Assembly (NCBI GenBank): GCA_018650465.1 | Contig: JABIFY010000112.1 | Span: forward strand, 1-64,000 | From: Alphaproteobacteria bacterium | GTDB taxonomy: Bacteria > Pseudomonadota > Alphaproteobacteria > UBA2966 | Reading direction: 5' to 3' | DNA: 64,000 nt | Shown here: piece by piece, positions 62,123 to 64,000 of the stretch | Position numbering within the stretch: the first letter of the stretch is position 1 | Layout: each line of letters opens with the position of its first letter | Made by a program: the position numbers and the translations under genes | Notes under the pieces: generated by a model | The model's database searches: none | Seen by the model: only the letters and a program-made list of their open reading frames with translations | Told to the model about the DNA's origin: nothing

Positions 62123-62875
62123 TTATTGTCGCAGTATCATTTTCCGGCCCAAAACTTCATAGGAGCCAAGGCGGTCGAGAAAGGACATGCCCAGCAAAGA
62201 TCCATTCATGTCGGCCTGGTTGATAGTCACAGCAACATCCCTGAATTCGATGGGTCCGATAGACAGAGTGTCGAGACGCCAGGGTGCCCCCCGCCCCCGC
62301 CCGTTCGCTGTTTCAAAAATGCGGGTATATTCCAGTCTCGAAAGATCGATGCCAATGCGACTGGCATCTGCGGGACTTAAAGCGATGCCCGTGGCACCGG
62401 TATCGATCAGAAAATTGATCCGCGATCCATTGGCCAGACCCGTGACATGAAAATGCCGGTCACTGCCTTTGGTCAAGGTAATCACTCCTTCACCATGTAC
62501 TGATGGCTGCCCTGGCAGTAGCTCCGATTTTACCCTGACGGCTGCAACCCCGATTTCCTCCTGATAGCTGTAGCCGAGGATCAACACAAATGCGACGCCA
62601 ATCCAGATGGCAATGTTTCGCCCGACGTTATTGAACTCAATACGCCGACTGAACAAAAGCCCGCTGGAAATCAATGCCAACAAGGCAATGCCATGGACAA
62701 AGCTCATCTGGTTGTCCTGCGATCCAAGGCTGCCGGGGAAATAGCTGAACAACCCCCACAAACCGACACCTGCAGCGACGGCCAGCAGCAACCAGACGGC
62801 CATACCAACGTGAAAATCCGCACGCTTGCGAGGCAACGGATCACGCCAAGGGCTCTTGTTTTCGGGTTTTTCCAC
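62123..62875 (-). CDS. Membrane-anchored retropepsin-like aspartyl protease (TIGR02281-type)
   Basis: A 250-residue protein. Three membrane helices lie in the first half (MAVWLLLAVAAGVGLWGLF, SFVHGIALLALISSGLLF, IAIWIGVAFVLILGY), and the last 120 residues form a single protease lobe with FLIDTGATGIALS as the catalytic Asp-Thr-Gly. Such clan AA proteins are common in alphaproteobacteria and little studied. I start it at GTG 62875, since the longer frame to 63379 runs into the gene at 63005 on the other strand. An ATG at 62803 is an alternative. Confidence 0.8.
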   Translation of the reverse strand: MEKPENKSPWRDPLPRKRADFHVGMAVWLLLAVAAGVGLWGLFSYFPGSLGSQDNQMSFVHGIALLALISSGLLFSRRIEFNNVGRNIAIWIGVAFVLILGYSYQEEIGVAAVRVKSELLPGQPSVHGEGVITLTKGSDRHFHVTGLANGSRINFLIDTGATGIALSPADASRIGIDLSRLEYTRIFETANGRGRGAPWRLDTLSIGPIEFRDVAVTINQADMNGSLLGMSFLDRLGSYEVLGRKMILRQ

Positions 62876-63004
62876 AATGATGCCTATGTTATCCTGATAT
62901 ATCTGTATTTTGATGACGGTATTAAACGAAGAAATACAACCAATCTTTGGACTCTTTCTTTTGCTTGTTCTATATATGGTTGCTGAAGTATCCTGGCGAG
63001 CGAA

Positions 63005-64000
63005 ATGGTTCAAAATCCAGATTATAATAACATGCCGATAAATGCTGCAGGCGGCCTTTCCCGTGTTCGGGACAGGCTGGAGCGCGTTAACGAGGCCGTG
63101 GATTGGTCGCGATTTGACAAATATTTGCATTGGCTGAAATCTGATTTTGCTGCGAATGAAGGGTTTGAGCCTGTCTTGCTCTTCAAAGCCATGCTGGTTC
63201 TTCACTGGCATGCCTTCACAGCACCCGAATTTGACCACGCAATCGAAGACAGTGTCACCATCCGCAGCTTCGTCGGGATAAAACCCCGTGATCCAGGACC
63301 ACGCCATCTGACAGTCAACGCCTTTCGCCGCTTTCTTGTTGACCGGGGCACAGCGACTGATGCCCTGGCGGAACTGCATCGCCAGCTATCTGAAACCGGA
63401 TTCCTGGCGGTTGATCACAAGGAAATAGAAACAGAGGAAAACTCGATACCGGACGAGCTGTACAGCCTGGCCAATGATGTCCGGCTAACGCGACCTTCAA
63501 GGTGGGTATCCATTGAAAAGGACTTTGTCGATTTCTGGAAGGAATATTGCCACGACGGAAAAATTCCCGTGATGCAAACAACGAGATACGACTCCATTCC
63601 TGGCCGTCTGCTTCGACAATTTGTTGTTTTGGATATTGACGACACGGAATTCCGCTTTGCTTTTGCGGGCAGCGCAATCACGGCCCAAAACAAGGGAGAT
63701 CTTGTCAAAGCCTCTGTCGTCCCAAAGCATAAACAATCTGCTTCAGCAATAAGCCATATGGGAGTCCAGGACGAGTTGATATCGATCTGCCGTGCTGCCA
63801 CGGACCGTCAGCAACCCGTCGCCACGTCGACCAGTTTTATCAATGGCAATGGCGACAGAAAAAACCTTTGGGCAATCCTGGCGCCCGTAATCGACAGCGA
63901 CTCAGAAGAAACCCGTTTGGCAGGCGCCGTCCTGATCACCGACACGGACGATGCAGTTTCAGAGAAAACCGGTGCAACTGCGGCAAAGATGTCGATGTTG
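63005..64000 (+). CDS. IS5-type transposase N-domain fused to a PAS_5-like domain, 3' end cut by window edge
   Basis: An open frame of 332 codons that runs off the window. Residues about 20-130 match the IS5-family transposase N-terminal domain (DUF772): DWSRFDKYLHWLK, LLFKAMLVLHWHAFTAPEFD, FVGIKPRDPG, HLTVNAFRRFLVDRG. A linker follows, then about 165-320 looks like the PAS_5 sensor domain: DFVDFWKEYC, YDSIPGRLLRQFVVLDI, FRFAFAGSAIT and a C-terminal strand LAGAVLITDTD. No DDE catalytic core appears in the visible part, so this is not an ordinary transposase. It may be a domesticated DNA-binding regulator. The rest lies outside the window. ATG 63005 has a weak ribosome site. Confidence 0.7.
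   Translation, partial: MVQNPDYNNMPINAAGGLSRVRDRLERVNEAVDWSRFDKYLHWLKSDFAANEGFEPVLLFKAMLVLHWHAFTAPEFDHAIEDSVTIRSFVGIKPRDPGPRHLTVNAFRRFLVDRGTATDALAELHRQLSETGFLAVDHKEIETEENSIPDELYSLANDVRLTRPSRWVSIEKDFVDFWKEYCHDGKIPVMQTTRYDSIPGRLLRQFVVLDIDDTEFRFAFAGSAITAQNKGDLVKASVVPKHKQSASAISHMGVQDELISICRAATDRQQPVATSTSFINGNGDRKNLWAILAPVIDSDSEETRLAGAVLITDTDDAVSEKTGATAAKMSML

Follow-up and report, generated by a model that had tools for sequence, protein, structure and literature searches.

The window, the whole 64,000-nucleotide stretch of DNA analyzed here (G000:C150:1-64000), ends within an open reading frame on a contig that runs on to position 83337. The first 332 codons of this frame lie at 63005..64000 on the forward strand, and the frame closes past the window, at contig position 64516, to encode a protein of 503 aa in total. 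The protein is composed of an IS5/IS1182-type transposase N-domain (aa 20-138; 63062..63418, + strand) followed by two PAS_5-like domains, PASa (aa 166-322; 63500..63970, + strand) and PASb (aa ~346-503; contig 64040-64513, + strand, beyond the window). The base composition of the fusion gene is native (51% vs 53% G+C). An aspartyl protease gene (gag-asp_proteas / Asp_protease_2; 62123..62875, - strand) is its divergent neighbor and occupies the same place in G001, an independent MAG that carries a full-length orthologue of the fusion. Alignment with G001 also revealed a conserved block, TTGTTCTATATATGGTTG (62965..62982, + strand), upstream of the fusion start. The position of the block is only suggestive of a candidate promoter, and a sigma-70 scan found no site there. 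On the other side, an alpha/beta hydrolase gene (contig 64538-65284, outside the window) is convergent with the fusion, with 21 bp between the two genes.

Profile searches were performed for both halves of the protein. The N-terminal ~115 residues matched NCBIfam IS5_4 (E 1.2e-11) and IS1182 transposases (E 1.3e-5) over the pre-catalytic part only, and the alignment stops just ahead of the position of the first DDE aspartate (VDAT motif). Against Pfam DUF772 the window's protein fails E<=0.1; six of seven family members match, the best at 5.6e-9. The PAS_5 (PF07310) score was 18.6 bits on the frame truncated at the window end and 27.2 bits on the full protein, the curated gathering cut-off being 22 bits. 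Profile-profile comparison of the N-domain with transposases gave 99.7% (E 2.7e-26), and comparison of PASb and PASa with standalone PAS_5 proteins gave 99.2% and 97.1%, respectively, with column-shuffled controls at <=0.7%. The second PAS domain matched the MopJ equivalog NF051868 weakly, at 18.4 bits vs a cut-off of 200, and a sequence search of the PDB with the fusion returned no convincing relative (one match, E 0.21). No DDE catalytic domain is present in the full 503-aa fusion, the remainder after the N-domain being PAS, and no inverted-repeat pair bracketing the gene was found within ~0.4 kb past either end, where degenerate ends are possible. A sequence-only reading of the window had described a transposase-type front that continues, in place of the DDE nuclease, into a PAS_5-like module whose end lies outside the window. 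Each of these points is borne out: both halves match their families, neither a DDE domain nor flanking inverted repeats appear after position 64000, and the remainder of the frame adds the second PAS domain.

Eight DDE-less fusions with one or two PAS domains were found in six alphaproteobacterial genomes: G000 (the window's own), G001, G005, G015 (three copies), G029, and G401. The full-length G001 orthologue, which is 66% identical (public MAG JABILA010000025.1, Alphaproteobacteria isolate SI054_bin61), and the homologues in G005, G015, and G029 came from a search of 61 related genomes; G401 was added by a later search. The frames are intact at 32-66% identity, with open frames of 509-565 aa where there are two PAS domains and 319-358 aa where there is one, and the C-terminal PAS_5 domain is present in every member. 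In a class-level draw of 385 genomes the fusion occurred in at least four (G000, G001, G015, and G029), a lower bound with the best four candidates scored in most genomes, and a phylum-level draw of 398 genomes held no additional fusion. The other strong N-domain matches whose sequences were read either run on into a DDE transposase or are truncated transposases, with one exception in G140. On plasmids, relatives match the N-domain region only, some of them annotated IS5 transposases; the viral contigs held no fusion relative and one transposase-like N-domain locus. Nuclease-free transposase parts fused to a sensor domain appear to be rare in bacteria.

Elsewhere in G000, DUF772 and PAS_5 gave no match at E<=0.001; weak relatives there may have escaped, since even the fusion goes undetected by these Pfam models in this search. 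Ordinary DUF772 transposases were not detected in G000 and are few in its sister genomes. G015 has ~20 PAS_5 matches (none were found in G000 and G001), and a standalone PAS_5 gene (L059:9891-10463, G015:C35) is found two genes away from one of its fusion copies. The exception in G140 (L135:4125-6713, G140:C422) likewise lacks a DDE domain. Its IS5_4-type N-domain (NCBIfam E 6e-6) leads into a long region that looks ankyrin-like in places by eye, and its first 658 aa gave no Pfam match. Elsewhere in G140, relatives of the later parts of this protein are located at contig ends and are without the N-domain. The G140 protein may represent a separate capture of the same N-domain.

The tree of N-domains separated the eight fusions from the transposases with support of 100/100; the G140 row, on a long branch, was placed within the fusion group, a placement that is unsure. 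In the PAS tree, which set the fusion PAS domains against 16 standalone PAS_5 proteins, all of the former fell into one clade (100/100), and PASa domains formed one clade among themselves (93/89). The simplest reading of these trees is one fusion event, followed by one internal PAS duplication in some lineages. Between G000 and G001, two species of a genus, the N-domain is 80% identical (dN 0.137, dS 1.85); the exact dN/dS ratio is withheld because dS is near saturation. PASb is 82% identical and PASa, the fast-evolving domain, only 42%, while a neighboring dehydrogenase, at 83%, is about as conserved as the N-domain and the second PAS. The low dN at near-saturated dS indicates that the N-domain is under purifying selection. 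Several findings support domestication well, as the sequence-only reading had proposed: conserved orthologues and paralogues without a DDE domain occur in six genomes, the N-domain is under this selection, the fusions form a single clade with stable synteny, and ordinary DUF772 transposases went undetected in G000. The fusion is therefore probably a domesticated transposase part.

The hydrolase lies directly downstream of the fusion, in convergent orientation, in six of seven readable loci (G000, G001, G005, G015 C101, G015 C35, and G029), with intergenic distances of 21-263 bp. G401 has a different gene at this position, and G015 C77 stops at the contig end. The hydrolase has conserved residues GxSxGG, D184, and H212 and resembles PcaD-type enol-lactonases and related esterases, scoring far below every equivalog cut-off. 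Together with a seventh member (G015 C24), the hydrolases formed a clade (100/100) relative to the 26 best others, and their leave-one-out scores were 271-392 bits compared to 245.5 for the best unlinked protein. In the 385-genome draw, the subfamily occurred only in the four fusion-bearing genomes, a specificity that is partly by construction because the profile was built from fusion neighbors; this caveat does not extend to the adjacency, the clade, or the seventh member. The supported branches of the hydrolase tree match those of the fusion trees (G005, then G015 C101, then G000 with G001).

In the case of G015, the hydrolase on contig C24 and the fusion on contig C77 each have their 3' end facing a contig end, and no overlap was found between the two contigs. 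A dispersed G015 repeat, AGAGCAGTTCCTCTTTAGATGGAAACATTCTG and its variants (L058 end, L057 near 9200, L094 end), closely follows the fusion in C77, lies between the two genes in C101, and comes after the hydrolase in C24; two of these three places are near contig breaks.

Next to the fusion locus in G005, G015 C35, G029, and G401 is a gene whose protein has two HTH-like regions. Within the 385-genome draw, this two-domain family occurred only in G000 (on another contig), G015, and G029, all of which are fusion-bearing. The G000 copy (L139:6440-6979, G000:C148) lies beside a large multi-domain histidine kinase gene and not beside the fusion. The hydrolase is co-inherited with the fusion, usually tail-to-tail, as is the HTH protein in several genomes; the convergent orientation means that hydrolase and fusion are not in one operon. 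PADLOC anti-phage models gave no match for the fusion or the hydrolase and only weak partial matches for the HTH protein.

Structure prediction gave a low-confidence model (mean pLDDT 50.4), in which the PASa region displays PAS-like secondary structure (block pLDDT mostly 57-83) and for which the top Foldseek matches were tandem-PAS proteins, suggestive of a PAS fold. The N-domain was modeled at moderate confidence as helices only (pLDDT 75.5, three sequences). Compared to the PDB, this model had nothing significant by Foldseek (best E 3.6), and VIA-align returned winged-helix repressors at Z <=4.0, within noise; this lack of a fold match is no evidence for a new fold. The N-domain core positions K61, D82, F89, G91, P99, and F107 are kept in common with transposases, while W43 and W68 are invariant in, and specific to, the fusions. 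Mean net charge of the N-domain was -2.9 in the fusions vs +0.9 in the transposases. The rows are not phylogenetically independent, and a truncated G001 fusion and the G140 protein are among the 25 used for comparison.

These observations were weighed against several possible functions. A ligand-responsive, PAS-controlled regulator in which the N-domain has kept its ancestral binding of DNA ends, much as the sequence-only reading had proposed, is the likeliest role, with a chance that we put at about even. It is the leading model because, in this transposase family, recognition of element ends is the expected task of the pre-catalytic part. IS903 is a member of the IS5 family, and its binding of the terminal repeat is located in the N-terminal part of the transposase. 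The binding of the IS903 transposase to its terminal inverted repeat is cited in PMC3299598. The fusion probably originated when a pre-catalytic IS5/IS1182-type N-domain was joined to a PAS_5 domain, the PAS being later duplicated in some lineages. The protein would act in the cytoplasm as a one-component sensor-regulator. Binding of a small molecule or partner by the C-terminal PAS_5 domain would change the oligomeric state or the exposure of the N-domain, and the N-domain would exert its ancestral end-binding role at genomic sites. Most simply, the neighboring serine hydrolase would produce or clear the signal, or its gene would be a target of the regulator. The more specific proposal, in which the DNA-reading regulator forms an as yet undescribed signaling module with a dedicated hydrolase and HTH protein, is possible but less likely than not. 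Counting against the DNA-binding model are the more acidic N-domains of the fusions, the N-domain model without a significant PDB match, the convergent hydrolase, and the precedent of MopJ, a PAS_5 protein that works by binding a kinase. A search upstream of the fusions also speaks against it, having found no DNA target, shared palindrome, or motif, only the block conserved between G000 and G001.

Several of the same results bear on a different function, in which the protein is domesticated but does not bind DNA, its helical N-domain serving oligomerization or partner docking and its signaling proceeding by protein contacts. MopJ, the best-studied PAS_5 protein, is a single-domain PAS protein that works through contact with the kinase DivJ (PMC4432633), and the C-terminal part of the fusion is related to it. 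The loss of positive charge from the N-domain and the failure of the motif search to find a DNA motif are in keeping with such a function, and the invariant W43 and W68 could form an interface. However, the transposase core (K61, D82, F89, G91, P99, and F107) is retained, and the pairing of a DNA-binding HTH protein with several loci fits a transcriptional setting equally well. Signaling by protein contacts is possible, if somewhat doubtful.

Restraint of mobile elements, by a PAS-gated N-domain that competes for IS5/IS1182 ends or poisons transposase complexes, would agree with the scarcity of ordinary DUF772 transposases in G000 and its sister genomes. We consider it highly unlikely, however: the long branches that separate the fusion N-domain from the sampled transposases make shared end recognition doubtful, PADLOC gave no match, and the conserved hydrolase partner would be left unexplained. 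An accident, whether a decaying transposase copy run into a PAS gene or a chimera of these draft assemblies in many contigs, can be dismissed given the same architecture in conserved orthologues and paralogues across six genomes, with intact frames, selection on the N-domain, conserved synteny, and native base composition.

The DNA-binding regulator can be compared with several known systems. The fusion corresponds to transposases of the IS5 group (NCBIfam IS5_4) and IS1182 with DUF772 over its N-terminal ~115 residues, where the invariant core is shared, but it differs from these in that it has no DDE domain, has no terminal inverted repeats that could be found, and is present as a single copy or a few paralogues conserved over long times. 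With Caulobacter MopJ (PF07310, NF051868) it shares the C-terminal PAS_5 family and the alphaproteobacterial setting, whereas MopJ is a single domain of 165 aa and the fusion is a transposase N-domain followed by one or two PAS_5 domains. The proposed sensor-plus-output layout is that of bacterial one-component PAS and HTH regulators, except that the output would be a transposase N-domain and not a recognized HTH family. TldR proteins are RNA-guided transcription factors derived from TnpB. We know of no PAS sensor in these or in the known animal transposon-derived factors. Both the animal transcription factors (PMC10027918) and TldR (named in PMC13418256) are likewise transposon parts reused outside transposition, but they derive from other transposon protein classes than the fusion, for which DNA binding is only predicted.

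The sequence-only reading was aware of no earlier account of such a protein, and a literature search, mostly outside subscription journals, likewise found no description of the architecture. If the model is true, a DNA-reading PAS regulator would parallel, in bacteria, the capture of transposases in eukaryotes. As a selected family with defined partners, the fusions offer a testable case of DNA-transposon proteins becoming bacterial host regulators, and they allow the function of the little-studied DUF772/IS5 N-domain to be separated from catalysis.
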